Part shown: in pieces, positions 1 to 54,859 of the stretch
Layout of the letters: the number at the start of each line of letters is the position of its first letter
Numbering within the stretch: position 1 is the stretch's first letter
Source: Daphnia pulex
Lineage: Eukaryota > Arthropoda > Branchiopoda > Diplostraca > Daphniidae
DNA length: 64,000 bases
Reading direction: 5' to 3'
Assembly: GCF_021134715.1 (NCBI RefSeq)
Contig: NC_060020.1
Location: forward strand, 5,084,001-5,148,000
Made by a program: the position numbers and the translations under genes
The notes under the pieces: model-generated
The model's input: only the letters and a program-made list of their open reading frames with translations
What the model was told of the DNA's origin: nothing
Databases searched by the model: none

Positions 1-250
1 TTCGAGTGTGACTGTCCTTTCCTTTATTTGCAGGTTGACGTTGCTAGGGATGGGTCTACAACAACCAATATCAAAATGAATACCAAATGGTTATGTAACA
101 CATCCCGTTCTCACATAGCCCCTACACCACTGCATGACACGTTTTACGTAAAAGTTCTCTGTAACCTTCGAAAGTGAAGGTCATACAATCTGGCCTTTCT
201 TTCTGCAGGTTGACGTTGCTGGGTGGTTGGGATGGGACTACAAAACTACA
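1..250. repeat. Dispersed repeat, inverted relative to the 52.4-53.1 kb array
   Basis: About one and a half units of a repeat whose core reads TGCAGGTTGACGTTGCT (29-45, again near 204-220). Around it are a 'gggtctacaacaacc' stretch and a 'ccgttctcacatagcccctacaccactgcat' type stretch. The reverse complement of the whole arrangement recurs several times at 52440-53130. Both copies are non-coding as far as I can see. The family is unidentified. The unit is cut by the window edge, so the true left boundary is unknown. Confidence 0.85.
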
Positions 251-3972: not shown

Positions 3973-6900
3973 TTAGGTTGGATTGGTGGTGTGGTTTTGG
4001 TCCCGATTCACCAATAGTTGGTCCAGCAGCTGCGTTAGATTGCACAAACCAATCAGGTAACCGTCTTCGTGATTGCCCACACGCCAGGGGCTGTTGTGAT
4101 CGATCTGGACTCCGCCTGGCAGCCGATGAGTCTTAGCAAAATCGATCATCCAAATATTTGCTTTGCTGTGATCGTGGACGAAAAGCAACGACGTGCCGAT
4201 CAACTGTTGGATTAAATTTTAAGATTTGATGAAATCAGTAACAAATACTTTTAAGTCAACTGTAGTTACCTCATGCGTTGCGAAAAATTCGGAACGAGCC
4301 AATGTGGCTTGCAATTGATTCAGTCGCTCAATATATTTAGCCTGATAAAAATAGCATGCTCATTAACAAACAACTCAAATCTAAAAATCCAGCCTTATTC
4401 CATTATATTTACCAATGCGTGAGGATGATGCTGCACAAAATCATGTAGGACGCTCACAATCTGTTGAGAAGAGCCTACAGTTTTGTAGTCTTTACTGGAA
4501 CTACCATCCTGTTTGCGGATGCCTTCGATCCGGAAGCCCAAAGTGGCCGTCGATGAAATAGTCTCTCGCCACACCATGTATCTCGGTTTGGTCACGCCAC
4601 CCATCTGAAGTTCCTCAGCCGTCGGGGCGCTCGGATCGACTTGTAACATTTTCTCAAACATATCCTGCAATTAGGTATTGTTGCGGTTAAACTTTGCTCA
4701 GATTGCCCAGGTTTAACACAAAAAATGTATATACTTTTCGTAATTTTGGTTTGAGTTTGGCTTTTGCCAACTCGTCTTCGAGATAAGTGCGCACTCCCAG
4801 TTTGCAATCCATAACGGACGGGTTGCGAAAGTCTCCCAGAAGGTCTTCCAGAACTAGAAATTCTGCGAGCCGATACAACAAGAGAATAATTAATTGGGGG
4901 GATCTCTTATTTGTCTGGGCTAAAGAATATTGATAAGGCCATTACTCTCGCCATCGTCGGATGTCACATTGCCCTTATAAGAGGGTATGAATGGCCGAAG
5001 CGGATCCTTCATCAACAGCTGGAAGCAGCTTTCTTCTTTGGGGCAGAGTTTCTTCAGGATGGTGCCGCGCTCGCCTCCAAGTTTGAAATTGCCTGCATAA
5101 CGAGGAAATGGAAATGAGGATGTTTCTTTTCTTTTTTTTTTAAGGCATCCAACAGCAAATGAATAAAAAATGATGTCTAACCCTGGTGGCCGGCCAATTG
5201 AACCCAAGGGTAGCGCTGGCGTCGAAATGTCTGGACAAATGGGGACCACTGGACGGCGCTGCGCACTTTACGCCACGCTGAGACCTGGCAAAAATCAATT
5301 TAAACAGTCCGCTCCTTATTCTCTTTTCGTTCAAACACAATAACAACCCAAAGACAGCATTATACACACAAACAAGATTCGACATCTCTCCAAAAAAAAA
5401 AAAATCCAAATGGCAAATCAACATGAAACATTGGCCAGACTCCGCCCTCCCCCTCTTTCCCCTGCTGAGCATCATTCAAGATCCCGGCGAGCATGGCGGG
5501 GAATCACGAAATGAGCTCTCTCTCTCTCTCTCTACTAAAGCTCTGCACTGTTTTTGCATCGACATTAAGCGGCGCGGCCTCAATCGATGGCGTGAAGGAG
5601 GTATCCAACTCGCGCGTAATAGGGACGTGGCCCAATAATGGTGTATCCTTTCTGTCGAAACTAAGCGGAGATCCTGTATTAGACTCGGTTCATGTCAGAG
5701 AGCAAAAAGAGAGAGAGAGAGAGAGACGGGATGGAAAGAAGAAGTAGAAAAAAAAAGAACCACGGCCAGCGGTATTACGCTCTAGCGTCCAAATCAGGCG
5801 CTATACAACAACAACAAGGAGGAGTAAAAAGGGAAGACAGACCAAGGCAACAACAACTTTCACTAGAAGCATTTTTCTATGTCTCATTTGACCCAGACAT
5901 TTCTCTTTCTCTTTACACGCTTTTTCATCCTCTTGCTTTTGCGCTTCCATTCGTTTTCGTAGCATACACACATATATATGCAGCACGCATAATATGTATA
6001 CTACATTGTTTTCTTTATTTATTTTCTCGTCGCGAGTTATTGGCTGACAATCTTTGGCCCAGGTAGCCCACAGACTCTCTCTATTATTCGATCTCCTTTT
6101 CGTTCGGTTATAGTTCGCTGCGACTAGTAAATTGTCTGGCCAACATTTATTTTTTGGGGAAATGAGGCCTCAGGGAACCGGGCCCTCCACATTAAAAAAA
6201 TCGTGCAGGTTTCGCATTCAGTTCAGAATAAAGTGTACTCGACCGTCTTTGGTAAAGCTCCGACCATAGATGCGGGTCGGGATATGGGGGAGAAGGCAAC
6301 GCTAAATTTTCCGTCACGCAATAATTCTGGTGAATATTGACAGGAGTAAATGAGAGAGAGAGAGAGTTGGCTGCGGGTTTTTTCGTTACACCGCCAAGGT
6401 ACCACCACCCAGCTGATCAGTAGATAGGCCTGTGATGTTTATGTTTTTAAGGCCATATACTGTAGATGGCGAATAATGCGCACTCGGACAGTATTTTTTT
6501 GTTTTTACGAGTGACCACAGCTAGTGAATGGCCACCAACATGTCTATACAGTGTAATAAACAGGCAAAGATAAAAAAAAAAAAAAAAAGCACGGTACGTT
6601 TCGCGTTCAATCATTTTGTCCGGCTGGTATGCTATTGTGTGTCGTTCATGGCCTCGGGACAGACAACTCAGCCTTTAAAAAATAAACGCGGTCTCTGCGC
6701 GTGTAGGTGTTGGTGCAGACCGCTTGTGGGTACATGGAGAAGCGATGGTTTGGTGGCCGATAAGGGTTTCTCCCAGCTTAAACCCCCTTTCCTCCTCCTC
6801 TTTTTCTTACTCTCTCGTCTATTTTCCCAACTCTGTCTCACTCCTTATTTATGCACATTCAATAGCACGACCTTTGATTCCTTCTACGATTCTTTTTACG

Positions 6901-28134: not shown

Positions 28135-29963
28135 TCACCGTTTCGTTCGACGCAGAACGTAGCAACCAATCGTTGATGCTGCTGCTAGAAATTGAATAAC
28201 AGTAGCAAATACAAATGCCAACCAATAAGACCGTCCTGGAGTGCTATCTACAATTAGTCCGGCCTGTAGAAAAATAATGCACTGTAAACACGAAGAGCTA
28301 TTTTGAGCTAGGAGCGTTATAAATTTCCTTACAATTGGTGGACCAATGAGTATTCCAAGACCCCCGAAAAACATTGTTATTCCGAAAACTCGGCTCAAGT
28401 TCAGTGTTCCAAAAAGAGATCGCGGTACCAGTGCTAGGAAAAAAAGGGAGAATTAATACATAACATTTCTCTCAACTGCAAGGTCAATTACCAAGGAGCA
28501 AACACTGAAGGCCATAGCTTACGCTAAATAAAAAGCCTTGGATAATCATTTGAATTCCGTTCACTACTAATGGAAAGGATGCGATCAAAATAGCGCAAAA
28601 CACCTGGGAAACGGCGTAAATTTTTGTCACATCAAGATTCCAAAATGTAACGAGCGGACCGATAACTAAACGGCCCACAAGGTCTCCTACTCCCATAGTG
28701 CTCAGCATAACGATATAATATCTAAAAAAGAAGAGAGAAAAAATAAATCCATAAAAGTTTCAGCAATTTTATTTGAATGGCAATTGTAACAAATAAAAAC
28801 ATACTCCTCGAGATCAAGAGAGCGAGTGTAATCAGCCAGTAAAATGTAAGGTATGGATGTGGCAAGTAACCAAAAAAAGCTGCTAAGATGCAACAGCCAG
28901 GCCGAATAGTCCTTCCACTTTAACTGCTGGGTCCCGTCGATGTAATCATCAACTATAACCTGGGGTTCAATTAAATCCGAGTACCTTTTCTCTTCTTTCT
29001 CTCCTTGCTTGTCGTTTGCGTTGAGAGGAAAGCTTTCAAAATCCACATTTTCATTTTTCGCTGGCTTCCTCGGTGGAAATATCAAAGCGCCCAAGCAAGT
29101 CAATTGAAAAGTGCAGGCGCCAGTGATGAGGAATGCACCTCTCCATCCGTACAGGTCAATTAGAAAATTGAAAAGTGGGCCAAAGACGAAAACACCTAAT
29201 CCAACACCAGATTGGCTTAGCGAGAAGGCGATCGCGTGCTTCTTGACGAAGCTGTCTGAAATAGCCACGATCCACGATGTGTAGTTTAAGCATAGACCAA
29301 ATGCTTGTAAAGGTAAAATTTTTAAAAAATTAATGAAGTTATGTCTATCGATAAGTAATGCTGCGATTCCTACCTGTTATTCCTCCATGTGTAAAAAACA
29401 GCATTATAAGGCTGGGCGCAATGCTACTCAAAGCGAACCCGATCATCGATAATATTCCGCCCAGCATAACAGTCCATCGGCATCCAATCCGCTTGATAAA
29501 TATTGTGGCTATTGGACCTATATATGTAATGATTGACATGGTCATTTGAACTGGCCATATGGTATGAAATTTCACAAACAAAATCCTAACCTGCTAACAT
29601 GTATACGCCATTGTTGAGCGATCCAACCCAAGCGGTGGTCGACCGTGTCGCTTGGAATTCATTGAGAAGCAACGGGAAATACATGCTGAAGGTGTAGTAG
29701 ACAGCTGTCTTACGGGAATAAATGGGGCATTAAATCTGTGCTAGAAAATATATCGCGTGGACTTTACCCGACGAAATCGCCGAAGCGGCGAGAGCAGCTC
29801 CAGCAATAACCCAAGCCCATCCAGCATCGATGTCTGGACTCAGACTAGGAGCTGAGCGGCAACGGCCGGCCGCCGTTTTTTCTGTGAAGTATTTTAAGCC
29901 AATAAAAGTATATCCAACAATATTTTGGTAAATATAAACATAATTACCAGTTTTTTCGGTCAT
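28135..29963 (-). CDS. Monocarboxylate transporter-like MFS protein (SLC16 type)
   Basis: Twelve-helix plasma-membrane carrier of the SLC16 group; substrate unknown. Exons 29963-29948, 29881-29768, 29704-29591, 29550-29374, 29303-28805, 28721-28492, 28433-28333, 28263-28135 give 459 residues with matched phases. The N-terminal DIDAGWAWVIAGAA matches the MCT signature (D/E-G-x-W-x-W) before helix 1. Helices 1-6 run to about residue 205. GLCLNYTSW and YGWRGAFLI are conserved MCT segments. A charged loop (about residues 210-270, NENVDFESFPLN, KQGEKEEKRYSD) splits the halves, and helices 7-12 end CYVLRRTKR. Exon 1 codes only five residues (MTEKT), and its promoter plus exons 1-2 are duplicated at 34104-35482. 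The acceptor of exon 3 was chosen by phase (CAG before 29704). Confidence 0.9.
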
Positions 29964-31176
29964 GTTGGATCGTTCTTCCTGACTTCTTCTCCTGGTTTGA
30001 CGAAATTAGTCCAGTTGATATTGGTCTTGAAACATCGACTGCTCACAGAAAACGGTACATCAACATTGTTTCGCGTGTTCGGGTAGAGAATTATGCTGCA
30101 CTTCGACTCACTTGCCGATAAAATAAGTGGCTTGATTTCCGATTGCGATATGACGACTTAGTTTCACTGATACGGGGTACGACTTCACGGCCGCACAGAA
30201 GTAACTTGATTCTATCCGCGTTGATGCTTCCCATGCCGATGCGACAGTATACAGACCCGCGTGCGAGATCTCTTTGTATGCTACAACCGGACTGAACTGG
30301 TTCTTTTGCTGGCGCAACTTTGTGGTCCAGATAAACAACAACATTTGTCGTCTGCAGGATCTCAAACGCAATGGGCATGCGCCAGAAGCAAGAAGGCACC
30401 AGAATAATTCAAGGATTTCACCTAGAGGCTATAAGAGCGTTTGATGTTTACTCACAAACATGGTGGTGATTTCCTAATTCCGGACGCTTAGCTATGTCAG
30501 AGTTTCTAAAAAGTTGGCGTTCGTATATGGATATGTAAGAATCTTCTATTTCACAAGAGTTTTATCGATTTACTGAGTTAATTGTACGTCATAATAGGAT
30601 TATAACGGTAAAAGTATTACTGCTGGTGGCTAACCCAACTTTTTATCGCAAGAAAGTTGAAAACGTTTGATCAATAATTCAAGTCGCTACTGTAACCTAG
30701 AAATTGTTATTAGCCTACCGTCACAACTTTAACGGAAAAAGTTGGGACTTACATATATAATTCAGGTTAAAGGTTTTTCCTCGAAGCAGTAATACAGAAG
30801 TTTATAACCATACCATTGTAAAACAACAAAAACTGAAAGAAATCTGAAAGAAATGAAAGATATCACTTAGGCCTACCTAGATAACACATTCATATGGCCA
30901 TTTATTTGTTTATCTCATCAACCCATTTTCCTTTATCAAAACTTTAGACCTACAAAAAAAAACTATTAATTATTCAATCGTTTGAATTGATTTCGACAAA
31001 TTTTGTCCTTACCGCAATAGAAACTCATCCCATCAAGTTTATCATAAACTAGGGAAAAGCTAACGGATGAGAACGAGAAGATTGTATTGTCGTTACAACA
31101 TTGAAGAAAGTCCATCAAATTTTAGGGTTGATTAAGAATTTTGTAGATTTTTGTAAAGTGTGATTAAGGTTATATA
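29763..31176. repeat. Segmental duplication, copy 1 (transporter promoter and exons 1-2)
   Basis: About 1.41 kb shared with 34104-35482 in the same orientation and at high identity, with small indels and scattered substitutions. It begins at the splice donor of transporter exon 2 and runs back through exon 1 and its upstream DNA. It is followed by a 47-bp segment (31177-31225, tagtgaacattgttagatta region) that also appears just before copy 2. Confidence 0.95.
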
Positions 31177-31510
31177 CAGACTAGTGAACATTGTTAGATT
31201 ATTTTCCGTGGGTCATCAAGGGGGGAAAACCAAGGCCATGATTGCTTACAGTTATTGCTGCTAGGATGAATATAGTAATTAGTAATATAGTAATTAATAG
31301 TGAAGGATTAGCTTTGGGGGGTCATGGCCGTCGTGCGCTGATTTCTCCTTCAGCCAATCAGATTAGAGAAAGGGAAGGGTCAGAAAAGGTGAGGACGCCA
31401 TTTTGTTTAGAACTTGTTGCATTTTGGCATATGTCAGTTTCGCAGTTGTCGTGTGATTTACTCCTCTGATAGTTTCATGGTTCTCTTTTCGTCAAATCAC
31501 ACCAATCGCC

Positions 31511-33605
31511 ATGGAGGAATTTAAATTTGACTTTATTGAAAGCCTGCATGGTAAACCCTAATAACCATTTGCATAAAGAAAATGAAAGTTGATTGAATTG
31601 TGTAATTTGACCAATTTGTGTATAGGTCAATACCTGGATTTCATTTGTGATCAGATTTTTGCCTATTTGGATTACGATTCTTTGATGAATTCAAAAATGG
31701 TCTCAGTTTTTGGAAAAAGATCATCTCCAAAGGGGCCTTCTGGAAGGTGATGTTGGAAAGAAAGGTAAAGCGATATCTTTTAATCTTTTAGCATGTGTTT
31801 GAGTAGGAGATGCTATATGGTGTAAACAGCAACAGTTATGTTATCTCTACCTAGAAAAAAGTGTTGCCCTATTGGAAAAAAGTGTTTGATGCAGTAAAAG
31901 TATTTAAAGATCAAGAGCTGCTGAGTCGTGGAAATGCTGATGCTTCTCAACGTCATTGTGAGTACTACCACACAATGTATTGTCTGGTGGAAGATGAAAT
32001 TCAAAAGGTAATGTGTCCAAGTAATAAAAATGTTTCAGTATCAGTTTTGTTCATTTTAAATAATTTGGTGTCCATTTCTAGAGTGTGGATTCAAACTGGA
32101 GAGCTGGAGGAAAACATCAGCGTGTCAAATACAAAAGCTTTGGAAATCCCTGTATCTTGGTTCATCGCTATGAATGTGAAGTGGATTCACAATGGATCGT
32201 TCAAATACAGCAGCAATGTCGTATACTTGTTCGTAATCGCTGGACCCTCAAACTGGAAAAGGTTAATATTTGTTCAAAATGTGAAAATGTACTATTGTAC
32301 ATAATAGGCCTAAGTGTGGTAATATCCTTCAGGTTCTTGAAATTCCGTTAACTGAAATCAACATGAATGGAAGGGATCGTGATTTTGAACTGACTCGTGT
32401 GAAGATTAATTCGAATTTCATCACAGCATCCTTTTCTGTCCACCCAGAAATTTGCGTTTGGGATGCAAAATCACATGAACTGGTAAGCAAACTCTATATG
32501 GTGTCACACAACGTTGATAGTTAATAAATTGCTTTAAGTTGAGAGTCTTGAAACCTGTTCCGGAGCAAGGAAACGGACGGAGGTCGGTCTATGTGAAAGG
32601 CCATTGCCTATGGAATGATTTGCTACTGTCGTGTTACCAAAGGGTTTCGGTATTAAATGCAAACTCAGGTTCCTTTGCCATCAGTTTACTTATTTTGAGT
32701 AATTGGTTATTTTTAGGATGAATCAGAATGCATTGTGACACTGCGCAGAATTCCCCTGAATGGGGACGGAGACGTCACTTTACTTTATTACCAGAAAGTT
32801 CTACCAAGTCCCAGATTTTTTCTGGAAGTTGCAATGGATGACGATTATATCGTGTTATTTTTCTCCAGAGATGAGCAACGATTGTACATGCCCAGTATGG
32901 CAGAAACTTTCGAGATAGAAATTCGAAGCGCAGTTTCCTATGATGTCGTCCATAAAATTTCGATTCCAACGTCTTCACCATTCGAAGACTACCAATTCCA
33001 TTATCTAAATGGATTTATTGTTATGGGCCAAACGGAAGACAATTTTTTTAGGTTTTATTTGACGTTGATTTTTTTTTATTGGTCATTTCCGCTCATTTCA
33101 CTGTTATTAGCATCTGGAGGGCTGCTGTTGGTCGTTGTGTCAAAACCATTTGCCATGGCGACCAAGGATTATGTGCAATCAGGTAAGTTAACAAGATTAA
33201 ATCTTACCGTATTCTTACAGAAATTACTACAACTTTGTTTCTTTGATTATTTCCATTAGAATCATTTCGGAAAAATTCATCGTCACTTGTGATGACGACG
33301 GTGTATTGAAGATCTGGGATTTCCAAGCAGCTCTCATTCACCCGGAGCCATCCAGCTCTAATTTCCTGATCAGGAAAATCTCCCACCTGAATGCTGTCTC
33401 CCGTTCGGCTTCGGCTAAACCATCTGCAGTATCCTCGAAGGTGAAGAGGATCGATGCCCGCAAGAAAACGCCGCGCGTTCCGCCAATTGAATATGTGGGA
33501 ACTACCTGCATGGTGGCCGACGAATTGCAAATGATCCTTGTTTTCCATTCGGACGATGGTTCTTCCTATTTGCACGTTGAAACCTTCTTGAACGCAGCCC
33601 AATGA
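31511..33605 (+). CDS. F-box / WD-repeat-like protein, one frameshift
   Basis: Probably an SCF substrate adaptor. Exons: 31511-31550, 31626-31764, 31855-32007, 32082-32261, 32333-32482, 32539-32668, 32727-33051, 33111-33182, 33260-33605. The start MEEFKFDFIESLHG leads into an F-box-like helix (LDFICDQIFAYLDYDSLMNS). The remainder holds NWRAGG, typical after F-boxes of FBXW proteins, and WD-style blades ending ICVWDAKSHEL, SIWRAAVGRCVKT and GVLKIWDF. About 511 residues if read through. In exon 2 the frame breaks at a run of five T (31707-31711): before it reads SKMVSVF, and the downstream in-phase frame reads WKKIISKGAFWKVMLERK. One missing T would explain it, through an assembly error or real damage. 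All later exons stay open, favouring an error or a recent hit. The acceptor at 32727 was phase-chosen. Confidence 0.72.
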
Positions 33606-34049
33606 GAAAGCCAGTCGTGTAAGTCTTCCACCCTGCCTGCTTTAAAGTCTTAACCATGCTGTGTTGCCTTGTTGATTGCGTTTAAACGCGCGTTTAAAAG
33701 TGACGTCAAGTTTCTCGGAAATTCGCATTTGTTTCAAACTCAGACCCCAGTTTGCTATCGTTCCAGTTACCTTACCGAAAATATTTTGAAATTCATTTGA
33801 TGAGTACAAGAAAATGTAGAAATACAATCGGTACACTACCGTACCGATTAAGTTTTGTCAAATACCGTCCTCTCTTGACTTTTTCTCTCTTGACCCAACC
33901 AACCATTTCGGTATATTTCAATTTGAATGATGCGTCTGGCCGCGCTTTCCAAAGTTGGTTCCGATTCATACAAAGGCACAGATTCCTGATGATGGCTTTC
34001 CCAAATGAAAATGGACAATACGCCACGCACGACCAGCAGTCGACCACTA

Positions 34050-34096
34050 TAGACTAGTGAACATTTTCAGATTATAATCCGTGGGTCATCAGAGGG
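34050..34096 (+). repeat. Direct repeat flanking the F-box gene (right copy)
   Basis: The segment tagactagtgaacattttc ... ccgtgggtcatca closely matches 31177-31225. The pair bounds the 2.8-kb block holding the F-box gene, and each copy abuts one copy of the 1.4-kb duplication. Confidence 0.8.
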
Positions 34097-34103
34097 TGGG
34101 GGG

Positions 34104-35482
34104 TTTACCCGACGAAATCGCCGAAGCGGCGAGAGCAGCTCCAGCAATAACCCAGGCCCATCCAGCATCGATGTCTGGACTCAGACTAGGAGCTGAGCGG
34201 CAACGGCCGGTCGCCGATTTTTCTGTGAAGTATTTTAAGCCAATAAAAGTATATCCAACAATATTTTGGTAAATATAAACATAATTACCAGTTTTTTCGG
34301 TCATGTTGGATCGTTCTTCCTGACTTCTTCTCCTGGTTTGACGAAATTAGTCCAGTTGATATTGGTCTTGAAACATCGACTGCTCACAGAAAACGGTACA
34401 TCAACATTGTTTCGCGTGTTCGGATAGAGAATTATGCTCCACTTCGACTCACTTGTCGATAAAATAAGTGGCTTGATTTCCGATTGCGATATCATGACGA
34501 CTTAGTTTCACTGATACGGGGTACGACTTCACAGCCGTACAGAAGTAACTTGATTCTATCCGCGTTGATGCTTCCCATGCCGATGCGACAGTATACAGAC
34601 CCGCGTGCGAGATGTCTTATATGCTAAAACCGGACTGAACTGGTTCTTTTGCTGGCGCCGGTAAACAACAACATTTTTCATCTGCAGGATCTCAAACGCA
34701 ACGGGCATGCGCCAGAATAATTCAAAGATTTCACCTAGAGGCTATAAGAGCGTTTGATGTTTACTCACAAACATGGTGGTGATTTCCTAATTCCGGACGC
34801 TTAGCTATGTCAGAGTTTCTAAAAAGTTGGCGTTCGTATATGGATATGTAAGAATCTTCAATTTCACAAGAGTTTTATCGATTTACTGAGTTAATTGTAC
34901 GTCATAGGATTATAACGATAAAAGTATTCCTGCTGGTGGCTAACCCAACTTTTTATCGCAAGAAAGTTGAAAACGTTTGATCAATAATTCAAGTCGCTAC
35001 TGTAACCTAGAAATTGTTATTACCGTCACAACTTTAACGCAAAAAGTTGGGACTTACATATATAATTCAGGTTAAAGGTTTTTCCTCGAAGCAATAATGC
35101 ATAAGTTTATAACCGTACGATTGTAAAACAACAAAAACTGAAAGCAATCTGAAAGAAATGAAAGATATCACTTACCTAGATAACAAATTCATATGGCCAT
35201 TTATTTGTTTATCTCATGAACCCATTTTCCTTTATCAAAACCTTAGACCTACAAAAAAAAAAGAAAAACCATTAATTATTCAATCGATTGAATTTATTTC
35301 GACAAATTTTGTCCTTACCGCAATAGAAACTCACCCTATCAAGTTTATCATAAACTAGGGAAAAGCTAACGGATGAGAACGAGAAGATTGTATTGTCGTT
35401 ACAACATTGAAGAAAGTCCATCAAATTTTAGGGTTGATTAAGAATTTTTGTAGATTTTTGTAAAGTGTGATTAAGGTTATAT
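34104..35482. repeat. Segmental duplication, copy 2 (spare transporter promoter and exons 1-2)
   Basis: About 1.38 kb matching 29763-31176. On the minus strand it retains exon 1 (34304-34289, MTEKT) and exon 2 (34222-34109). The exon 2 frame is open (EKSATGRCRSAPSLSP... to SAISSG) and a GT donor is intact in the same phase. Two coding changes are visible (TAA to SAT). It could serve as a second promoter and first-exon set for the transporter, splicing across the F-box gene to 29704; otherwise it is a dead fragment. Nothing downstream inside the intervening block looks like a new partner exon. Confidence 0.9.
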
Positions 35483-36754
35483 ATATAAACACACTTTGAA
35501 ACATTCCTTGGCAAAAAAAAAATAAGAAGGATGAAATAAAAGGAAGGAAAAGGGAAAGATGGGAGTGAAAAGCGACAAAATCGGAAATGTTATGCCTTCA
35601 TTTGTTGGTTGAACGTGTGCCTGAATGGTGTAGAAATAGACATCGGTAAAGGCGTCCGGCTCCGAAATTCTTACAAAACACGGCCACAGCAGATGGGAAA
35701 GTAGGGCACACAGTTATTAATGATCATCAACAAATAAACAGCGGCGAGAAAATGGTCTGCAAGAAGCAAATCGGTGCGTATAATTTAGAATAGTGTCCGA
35801 TGTCCCCCACCCTCCACACAAAGCCCATACTCATTTTCTTTGACGAAACAATCACTGAGCGTGTGAATCATCATCATCTATCACTTATTTTATGCTATAC
35901 GGCACCACGTTGCAAGTCTTAAATTTCGTTCGAAACAACTCTTGCCCGAATACGATCGGGGTAGTCCTTGACATTGTTATTATATACATAGAAACACACA
36001 CACGACAGAGCTTATTATAATAATTTCTTCCTCTTTTGTCTGTTTTTTGTTGGTTTGTTTTTCGTTTAGTTTAAAGATAAAGAGATGTACAAAATTGTGC
36101 AAGAGTCCGCGCTTCCATGAAAAAAAGCCTGCGGATCGAAATCAAATCGTTAATTGTCCGTTGTTTAGGAGGGCAACAGTCTGGTGCGAAATGGACGACA
36201 AAACTAAAAACAAAAGTTAACCAAAATAATCGTTCGTTCCCGTCTCTCCTCACCCTATCTACTAATTTCAGCCGACAGCATCACTACATGACCAAGTCGA
36301 TGCGAAATTTAAAATAAAAGGATGGAATTAGTTCATGTTTCAATACCCACGCGCGAGATCTGGCCAGCTTTGACAGCTCAGCGAAATATAGGGAATGGGC
36401 ATCGCAAATTTTTAGAACTGTTGTAAAGGTTCATATCCCGCCATCGTTGCACAAGGGGCAAACTTTGAATTGGCAGGGATCAAATCAAATGATATCTAAG
36501 AGGAAAAACAAAGCACAAAAAATGATGATGGCAAAATTAAGAGCGTTCCGGCACACGAAGTATAGGAATGTCTGTGTTTTCTTGAAAGAAAAATTAAAGA
36601 AAGAAGGAATTTTTAAGGGTTGGTATGGGAGAGGTATATATAATACATCAAATCAGTCTGGCATTTAAAAAAAAAAGGTAAAACCACTGATGGGTTAGTT
36701 GTCTCAGGGTAACGGGGGAAGGAAGAATTACTGAAAAGAAGTGTGCCATCGTCT
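35483..36754. other. Downstream of numb, probable 3'UTR
   Basis: No convincing coding frame. As the stop of numb is at 36755, part of this is presumably its 3'UTR. A short Lys-rich frame at 36447-36668 (+) is AT-driven noise. Confidence 0.5.
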
Positions 36755-50460: not shown

Positions 50461-50650
50461 GCCTTATCAATATTCTTTAGCCCAGACAAATAAGAGATCC
50501 CCCAATTAATTATTCTCTTGTTGTATCGGCTCGCAGAATTTCTAGTTCTGGAAGACCTTCTGGGAGACTTTCGCAACCCGTCCGTTATGGATTGCAAACT
50601 GGGAGTGCGCACTTATCTCGAAGACGAGTTGGCAAAAGCCAAACTCAAAC
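50461..50650 (+). pseudogene. Stray copy of one IP3K exon with its upstream intron
   Basis: 190 bases nearly identical to the reverse complement of 4939-4749. It comprises the intron, acceptor and most of the exon encoding [20 protein letters not shown] and [17 protein letters not shown]. One base is lost from a C-run (five C against six). The copy starts just past the position where the source intron has its GTAATG donor, and stops inside the exon at ...AAACTCAAAC, so it lacks both neighbours. It cannot make a kinase. The near-identity argues for recent duplication or gene conversion. Confidence 0.92.
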
Positions 50651-51621: not shown

Positions 51622-52439
51622 GTAAGCAAGCGGAGTCTCTACACGAAATTTACTGAAAAATAACGATTTAAAAAAAGGAAATTCGATCGTTTTTCAGCTG
51701 TCAAAAGCCCCAGCTTTAGTTACTTTTATTTTTCGTAGTTCTAAAGTCATTTATTGTAATTATTTTGAGATTATTTGGGGTGATATTTTACCGTAAGTGA
51801 TCTAGCTTCAAAGCTCACTTGTTAGATTTTTTATATTTTGCGTTTATATCTACTTCCGGTTTCTAAATCAGTTAATAGTTCAGTAAGTTTGTATGTGACA
51901 CCCAAATAAACCCATTATTCGTGATCCTCGTCAAATTTGGGGTCGATTTCATGTGAAAGTACAAAATGTCGGAAAATCGTCCAAAATCGAGAATTTTCCT
52001 GATTTCACTTAGGTCTGGTACGAATGTTGCGTGACGAAACCTCTTTTCAGTGTTCACTATCTGTTGGATCGATCGCACAATATTGGCCTCTAAATGTAAT
52101 TAAAGGACAAAGCATTTTTATTGTCATGATTCCACTCTACTCTAGTCTAGTTCTTCCAAAGTTGCTCATGGGACTGAGTACCAGGATTGTTCCAGTGTTA
52201 ACATTTTTGCAACTATTGAGAGCTTATTGACAGAGAAAAGAGGTTTCTAACAAGGCTCAACTGTGTGCATATCATGAAATGAATATGGATTGATCATGTG
52301 TTTGAAACTTGGATAAGATTGCAGAGGAATATTTTCAAAAAAACCGACTGTCCTTCAAACGGTTTGAAATGGAAGATTTATTCATTCACTGAAAAAACGA
52401 GTCAAATGACTCAAATTTAAATTGGTAAAGTTTTAAGCC

Positions 52440-53130
52440 ATAACCATTTAATTTAGTATTCATTTTGATATTGGTTGTTGTAGACCCGCCCCAGCAACGA
52501 CAACCTGCAGAAGGAAATAAGGTACGTAAAACTTGTCATGCAGAGGTTGGGTGAGAACGGTATGTGTTACATAACCATTTGGTCATTCATTTGGTATTCA
52601 TTTTGATATTGGTTGTTGTAGACCCATCCCTAGCAACGTCAACCTGCAAATAAAGGAAAGGACAGTCACACTCGAAGGTCACGGAGAAAAACGTGTTATG
52701 CAGTGGTGTAGAGGTTGGGTGAGAACGGGACGTGTTGCAACATTATCAAGCAGGTACTATAGCCGCAAGGCTTAGCCATTTGCATTTGGTATTCATTTTA
52801 AAATTTGTTTTTGTAGACCCAACCCCAGCAACGTCAACCTGCAGAATGAAATGCCAGTTTGCATGTCCTTCACACTCGAAGGCCACGGAGATGATTACGT
52901 AAAACGTGTTATGCAATGGTGTAGGGGCTTGGTGAGTACGGTATGTGTTACATAACCATTTGGTATTCATTTTGATATTGGTTGTTGTAGACCCATCCCC
53001 ACCCCCAGCAACCTGCAGAAGGAAAGGCCAGTAACACACTCGAAGGTCACGGAGATCTTTACGTTAAACGTGTCATGCAGTGCTGTAGAGGTTGGGTGAG
53101 GACGGACGTTTCGCATCATTATCAAGCAGG
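52440..53130. repeat. Tandem array of the dispersed repeat (four units)
   Basis: Cores CAGCAACGWCAACCTGCAG at 52492, 52631, 52826 and a shortened one at 53006; spacings about 138, 196 and 180 bases. Each unit also carries 'ttggtattcattttgatattggttgttgtagaccc', 'cactcgaaggtcacgga' and 'atgcagtggtgtagaggttgggtgag' modules. An inverted copy starts the window. Repeated minus-strand open frames over it are a by-product of the repetition. Confidence 0.9.
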
Positions 53131-53177
53131 TACAACACCCCGCAAGGCTTTAGAGGTGAGGGTGAGAAAAAAAATCG

Positions 53178-53215
53178 TATAAAAGGAGAGAGAAAAGGCG
53201 AAGGTAAATCAGTCG
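53178..53215 (+). promoter_or_regulatory. TATA box and arthropod initiator of Tyr-rich gene
   Basis: TATAAAAG at 53178-53185 and TCAGTCG (arthropod Inr TCAGT) with its A at 53211, 33 bases from the first T. Spacing is right for a strong regulated core promoter. It lies just upstream of the ATG at 53293. Confidence 0.75.
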
Positions 53216-53292
53216 AGTGAGCATCTTCGACACGGCAACAACTACAGCGCACTCACCATCTGCCTTCTTCACTGTATTGCCAGTTCGCAACC

Positions 53293-53835
53293 ATGGGTAA
53301 ATTTTCTGTCTTTACATGGAGTATTGTATTAATGGCGATTATTTTCTGTTTGTTAATATGCAAGATATTATTGAATGTTAATGTTTGAATTTTTTTACTG
53401 TGTAGTTGTCTAAGGCGTCGTATGCTGTTGGGTGTTGTATCGTTAATGGCTGGGTCGACCACTGGTGTACCGATGTCTCCTGGGGTGTGGCGGATGCCAA
53501 ACCGCAACGCCGCCGCCTTACTACGCAACAACCGGTTCCTACACCACCAAGGTTCAAGAGTGTTACACCACAATTTATGATGCCCCGAGCTGCTACACCG
53601 AATCCCGAAGTATAACTCTGCCCCGAGTTACATCACTAGAGAGCCGGATTACTACACCGAGGCTCCGAAGTACTACATCACTAAGACACCGGAATACTAC
53701 ACGTCTATGTATGCTGCCCCTGCCTACTACACCGAGGCCCCGCATTACTACAACACCGAATCGCTTAAGTACTACACTTCAACCTACGCTGCCCCAATCT
53801 ACTACACCTACGTCCCGAAGTATTACTGTGCGTAA
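53293..53835 (+). pseudogene. Tyr-rich repeat protein gene, frameshifted (copy 1)
   Basis: Exon 1 is ATGG at 53293-53296 before GTAAAT. The acceptor at 53405 leads to a large exon. Spliced in phase it stops at once (MVV then TAA). Three frames share the exon: GVADAKP early, then YYATTGSYTTKVQE and CYTTIYDAPSCYTE, then from about 53608 APSYITREPDYYTEAPKYY, TPEYYTSMYAAPAYYTEA and TSTYAAPIYY to the stop at 53833-53835. The repeat is roughly YYTEAPKYYTT-x-YAAPS, like secreted extracellular or cuticle-type Tyr-rich proteins of branchiopods. At least two frameshifts in the repeat. The promoter is intact. Confidence 0.7.
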
Positions 53836-53918
53836 AAGGAGTCGTCTAAGTCGTGCCTGAACTGCAGAGCCCTATCTGTCACCAACTGCATTCCTCATCG
53901 TGTAACCGATTCGCAATT

Positions 53919-54859
53919 ATGGGTAAATATTGTCTTAATTTTGTATCAATTTTATTTTTTCTATTTGTTGATATGCCTGTTAATGTTTAATGTTATTGTT
54001 TAGATTTATTTACTGTTTACTTGTTTAGTCAACGATGGCGCCGTGCTCCCTGTTGGGTGTTGTATCGTTGATGGCTGGGTCGACCACTGGTGTACAGATG
54101 TCTCCGAGAAGTCTCCTTGGTATGGCGCAAACCAAACCGCAACGCCGCTGCATTCCGACACAACTTATGCAACGACCAGTTCCTACACCGAGGTCTTCAA
54201 GTACTTCATCACTACAGCACCGGAGTTTTATACCACAACTTACGCTGCCCCGAGCCACTACACTGACGCTCTGAAGTATTAGTCTGCCCCGAGTTACTAC
54301 ACCATCTAGGCGACGGAGTACTACATGATTACGTATGCTGCCCATCCTACTACACCGAGGCTTCTAAGTATTACTCTGTTCTCATTTACTTGCTGCACCT
54401 ATTTTCCTAAGTACTACTCTGTTCACAGCAACTACACCGAGGCTCCCGCTGATTACTCCACCAAACGGTTGAGTACTACACCTAAGCGCCAAAGTACTTC
54501 TCTGCCCCGATCTACACAACCACAACTGAGGCAGCCAAGTATTACGCAGTCCCGACTTGCTACCCAGAAGCTGTTCTTTCGTGCTACGTTGAACAGAAAT
54601 ACTACACATACTACGCTCCAGTTAACTACACCACGACCTACGTTACACCTAGCCACAACACCGCAGCCCCCAAATACTACACCGAAGAAGCCGCCTATTA
54701 CACAACCACGTACGCTGCCTGGTATACTACATCCAGGAATTTAAGTATTACTCTGCTCCAAACTACTACCAAACTGAAGTTAATTTCTATTTCACCAGCA
54801 ATTCTCCCGACCATGTCACCACTACTTGTGTTGCTCCGACCTATACATCGAAGTTCTGA
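53919..54859 (+). pseudogene. Tyr-rich repeat protein gene, broken (copy 2)
   Basis: Tandem partial copy. Exon 1 ATGG at 53919-53922, acceptor at 54028, open to TAG at 54280-54282 as an 85-residue frame (MVNDGAVLPVGCCIVDGW, later SSYTEVFKYFITTAPEFYTT and TYAAPSHYTDALKY). A hydrophobic signal-peptide-like run (LLGVVSLMAGS) sits in another frame of the same DNA, so a frameshift separates it from the repeats. Beyond 54283 decayed repeats go on (NYTTTYVTPSHNTAAPKYYT, EEAAYYTTTYAA) to about 54859. No TATA box copy was found upstream. An 85-residue product is possible but would lack a signal peptide. Confidence 0.6.

Follow-up and report, generated by a model that had tools for sequence, protein, structure and literature searches.

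Can a partial duplication that copies a gene's promoter region and first exons, leaving the later exons in single copy, give that gene a second working start? The question is raised by a transporter locus in Daphnia pulex, within the 64,000-nucleotide stretch of contig C4 analyzed here (C4:5084001-5148000, 40.6% G+C; "the window"). Comparison of the window with itself by BLASTN returned one long same-strand match (93.6% over 1425 columns, E = 0), between a near copy (A) continuous with the body of the gene and a far copy (A') upstream of it (Table 1). In a MAFFT alignment the two differ by 35 substitutions in 1369 aligned bases (2.56%) and by nine gaps, of which six, with 45 of the 56 gapped bases, are in A'. 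The repeat is genuine and well outside what chance would produce. It amounts to a 1.4-kb partial tandem duplication of the 5' end of a gene of the major facilitator superfamily (MFS): it takes in about 1.2 kb upstream of the ATG and the first exons, and its limit falls beyond exon 2, 5 bp into intron 2. An earlier note on this DNA had read promoter, exon 1, and exon 2 as occurring twice in the same orientation, and both BLASTN and MAFFT bear this out.

Table 1. Features of the transporter and F-box region (window positions).
Feature	Position	Strand	Remarks
Transporter gene (MFS_1 family)	28135..29963	-	8 predicted coding exons, 448 aa, open; hand-made exon model
Exon 3	29591..29704	-	predicted; acceptor is the one proposed as shared
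Near copy A	29763..31176	-	upstream region, exon 1, intron 1, exon 2, 5 bp of intron 2; BLASTN and MAFFT
Near exon 2	29768..29881	-	predicted, 114 nt, phase 1 in and out
Near exon 1	29948..29963	-	predicted coding part, 16 nt
Repeat B	31175..31225		left edge of F-box unit; 86.5% to 34048-34099
Segmental copy	31199..33993	+	88% to C4:109562-112337, introns kept
F-box/WD40-like gene copy	31511..33605	+	9 predicted exons; frameshift in exon 2, codon 55 a stop (31748-31750)
Filler, 54 bp	33994..34047		outside the C4:110 kb match
Repeat B'	34048..34099		BLASTN and genome search
Far copy A'	34104..35483	-	BLASTN and MAFFT
Far exon 2	34109..34222	-	predicted, open; 3 substitutions, 2 amino-acid changes; donor GTAAAC
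Far exon 1	34289..34304	-	predicted; identical to near exon 1

The exon calls are predictions made by eye. In the resulting model all seven transporter introns have GT/AG ends, and the product matches Pfam MFS_1 with an E-value of 5.8e-33 and 114.7 bits, against a curated cut-off of 33.4; it is presumably a transporter of the monocarboxylate (SLC16) type. The far copy retains the ATG, exon 1, intron 1, exon 2, and a GT donor, and no disabling change was found in its exon 1, exon 2, or predicted splice sites in this assembly. As predicted, then, both copies of the first exons are open with their splice sites in phase: phase 1 is shared by the end of exon 2 and the start of exon 3, so that the far donor could be joined to it in frame. 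The predicted far protein start is MTEKTEKSATGRC, against MTEKTEKTAAGRC for the near copy, two of the three exon 2 substitutions giving the changes T8S and A10T. In near-copy positions the three substituted sites are 29814, 29870, and 29876. The open far frame, the exon 1/2 splice sites, the donor in the phase of exon 3, and an N-terminus altered at a few residues (here two) had all been anticipated, and hold in the exon model. Intron 1 is 66 nt long, a length divisible by three, and a transcript retaining it would likewise keep the frame open.

Some features of the 5' region differ between the copies. The donor after exon 2 is GTAAAG in the near copy and GTAAAC in the far one; since a paralogue of the transporter on contig C11 carries GTAAAC at the corresponding exon end, the far donor is plausible and not evidently weakened. 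Exon 1 itself is not clearly confirmed by the C11 paralogue, which has no clear alignment over exon 1 or the 5' part of exon 2. Each copy has one match to the TCAKTY start-site motif, at -332 (near) and -334 (far), and within 600 bp upstream there are seven ATGs in the near copy and nine in the far. A 3-bp difference around 34495 gives the far copy an extra ATG at -191, which opens a frame of 64 codons ending in a stop that overlaps the main ATG.

Are the far exons under selection? Alignment of the two copies, which the earlier note had proposed as a check for constraint, gave no sign of this. Conservation of the coding bases does not exceed that of the rest (3 substitutions in 130 against 32 in 1239; Fisher P = 1.0, a comparison of low power with 130 bases), and coding constraint on the far exons was not seen; by part, there are 0 substitutions in 66 bases of intron 1, 12 in 386 over the 400 bp upstream of the ATG, 20 in 782 further up, and 0 in 5 of intron 2. 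Since the coding bases do not stand out, youth or gene conversion explains the open far frame. The copies are identical over at most 206 consecutive nucleotides (nt), a run that takes in the whole of exon 1 and intron 1 together with 119 nt before the ATG and five bases at the start of exon 2 (P = 0.028, uncorrected, under random placement of 44 events). It could reflect constraint, conversion, or chance, and because the near copy alone would be expected to be constrained over this run, it is no demonstration of constraint on the far copy. Polarizing the exon 2 changes by means of the C11 paralogue was uninformative: at the sole clearly alignable difference (29814) the paralogue has a third base.

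On sequence grounds, use of the far copy as a promoter seems unlikely. Two products can be envisaged if it occurs. In the first, the one originally proposed, transcription would start in the far copy, near exon 2 would be skipped, and 34109 would be joined to 29704, encoding a transporter that differs at two N-terminal residues. The open frame, identical exon 1, GT donor, and phase match are consistent with this, as is the 206-nt identical run described above, and there is a precedent in the PEP1 gene of Arabis alpina, where, according to passages of the published account, both copies of a duplicated first exon are spliced to one exon 2 (PMC3527215). Against it, the coding bases lack excess conservation, the intron required is 4404 nt long in comparison with 56-90 nt for 15 modelled introns of two window genes, and the acceptor of near exon 2, 4227 nt from the far donor, must be bypassed; such a transcript is quite unlikely. 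The second product, a possibility absent from the original reading, uses that very acceptor, which is the first after the far donor in the gene model: since exon 2 is a multiple of three with phase 1 at both ends, joining 34109 to 29881 would be in frame, and the hypothetical mRNA, with exon 2 twice and the first membrane-spanning stretch repeated, has an open joined frame. A doubled first helix would probably harm the MFS fold, however, and this product is highly improbable. Alternative promoter use is thus possible as far as the intact frame makes it so, and no further, and the original interpretation as a whole is only partly supported.

What lies between the copies bears on how they arose. 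The earlier note had placed a nested F-box gene there, on the opposite strand; position and strand are as described, but the sequence is a segmental copy of another locus, with a frameshift and a premature stop, and an open copy exists about 5 Mb away, on the other strand of the same contig. That copy, with an open 519-aa model, was the one other DNA-level match to the F-box unit in the genome searched (133,188,837 bases in 13 contigs; counts of this unit, of A, and of B are lower bounds), and weaker protein-level relatives were found on contigs C2, C3, C5, C8, C10, and C12, with 25 matched stretches in all. The profile scores of the open copy are 18.3 bits for F-box-like (cut-off 24.3), 15 for F-box (20.5), and 17.3 for WD40 (27). 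In this assembly the window copy lacks one base in a T run (31707-31711) of exon 2, the F-box exon, whose other two frames hold stops; the deletion may be a sequencing error. The model also requires an exon 7 acceptor other than that of the distant copy. Apart from this the frame is maintained: its length changes, of 6, 12, 9, and 9 bases, are all in frame, and between the window and distant copies dS is 0.17 and dN 0.084 (ratio 0.49) over 506 codons aligned in two pieces. At 31748-31752 (TGATG) the premature stop overlaps an ATG in frame with the rest of the protein, so that an F-box-less product is conceivable.

Elsewhere in the window, an ecdysteroid kinase-like (EcKL) gene at 768-2091, on the minus strand, has a 70% relative in the neighborhood of the distant F-box copy, at C4 about 120.4-121.7 kb and roughly 8 kb from it. 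As the gene belongs to the EcKL family, this proximity was taken for a gene-family coincidence. A 190-bp stretch occurs twice in inverted orientation (4749-4939 and 50461-50650, 99.5% identical), perhaps a recent short mobile element, and diverged tandem-like repeats at 52435-54325 have related inverted copies at the start of the window (1-243).

Several general origins can be set aside. A genome search with the near copy returned three matches, two of them full-length places and the third a 79-bp match in exon 2 of the C11 paralogue, and the 52-bp repeat B was found, by a pattern search allowing up to three mismatches, at its two sites in the window alone. There are at least two long DNA copies of A, at least two of the F-box unit, and at least two of B, and not many, which argues against a dispersed repeat or transposon; the presence of intron 1 in the far copy, and of eight introns in the F-box copy, argues against a retrocopy. 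Could two haplotypes, or a misjoin, have been set in series during assembly? Alleles could in principle diverge by 2.6%, but a false haplotype would repeat the same order, and here A is followed by B, while A' comes after B' and before other sequence; an assembly artefact is hardly credible.

The order of elements, A-B-Fbox-filler-B'-A', needs at least two novel junctions. Break repair with templated insertion or template switching would fit these, as would the integration of a circle. Within the inner half of B are 23 bases found ahead of the distant F-box copy as well; homology of its outer half with the flank of that copy was rejected, 22% of 2000 random 80-mers reaching the same score. No second genome copy of the filler was reported for a query that included it from 34000 on. 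On the left, the neighbor of the locus is VPS28 (PF03997), beside which lies a piece with sub-threshold matches to ATG2_CAD and VPS13_N, interpreted as Atg2-like; the right-hand neighbor is a minus-strand gene with a PTB/PID domain (PF00640), which we take to be Numb. The ancestral order would then have been transporter body, A, and the 3' flank of the PTB-domain gene; one or more replicative repair events would have inserted B-Fbox-B', along with another copy of A, between the last two. The gene body would have stayed with the near copy and the old upstream flank with the far one: A' and its right flank would represent the old upstream junction, and A and its left flank the old junction with the gene body.

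Not all parts of this layout appear to be of the same age. Silent divergence between D. pulex and D. obtusa is 0.134 on average, as given in a passage of the source, and against this value the approximately 2.6% between A and A' would, at face value, make the A duplication younger than the split of the two species. A and A' are also less diverged than B and B', which have 6 differences in 51 aligned bases (an excess over the A rate; P = 0.002, uncorrected), and than the introns (62/520) and downstream part (39/384) of the F-box copies. Two readings follow: a later duplication of A, or sequence exchange between A and A'. By these comparisons the F-box copy looks older than the A/A' pair, or the pair homogenized; the older age rests on the coding, intron, and downstream parts, and not on the segment immediately preceding the F-box ATG, whose 11 differences in 256 aligned bases (4.3%) come nearer the A/A' value.

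Taken as a whole, the locus is probably best explained as a partial tandem duplication with an F-box segment and its flanking repeat at the junction, the near promoter being the main one and the far copy young or homogenized, and most likely neutral. Normal transporter mRNA would most likely come from the near promoter. Youth (about 2.6% divergence) or homogenization with its neighbor would account for the intact look of the far copy, which is most likely neutral or the source of low-level antisense transcription over the F-box remnant, as opposed to a selected second promoter. A more elaborate possibility is that the young duplication did yield a second promoter, one still attached to the original distal flank upstream, the near promoter having come to lie next to the inserted F-box unit; the two starts would share exons 3-8, and the far transcript would run antisense through the decaying F-box copy. 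This is very doubtful.

The literature search found no paper on duplication of a Daphnia monocarboxylate transporter, and no title among the best matches listed named this locus. Partial 5' duplications of this type are nevertheless already known. The closest precedent is again PEP1, described in passages of the report as two overlapping genes arising from a partial tandem duplication, with a direct repeat of about 2 kb in which exon 1 is accompanied by parts of the promoter and of intron 1. Its exon 1 copies are separated by 6.3 kb, its downstream exons are single, and 5' RACE and cDNAs proved the two starts (PMC3527215). Common to both loci is a direct repeat with promoter region and first exon, later exons being single, and since PEP1 uses its duplicated promoter region and first exon, the idea of a second start for the transporter describes a known kind of event. 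As far as those passages go, the differences are that the upstream sequences of the PEP1 copies share little homology, in contrast to the long shared upstream region of A and A'; that the PEP1 repeat holds exon 1, whereas the transporter repeat holds two exons, with an opposite-strand, frameshifted gene copy between; and that both PEP1 starts are shown on RNA, while the far start of the transporter is predicted from DNA. Tandem or segmental gene duplication, as generally known, is similar in its direct repeat, kept intron, and low divergence, but here part of a gene is involved, and the junction holds a segment that is also present elsewhere in the genome. Were the far copy in use, this would be an animal counterpart of PEP1, with promoter duplication observed at an early stage, and RNA reads could separate the two transcripts by the three exon 2 differences. 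Otherwise, the locus would be a clean case of how little frame integrity and sound splice sites tell about function when a partial duplicate is young.
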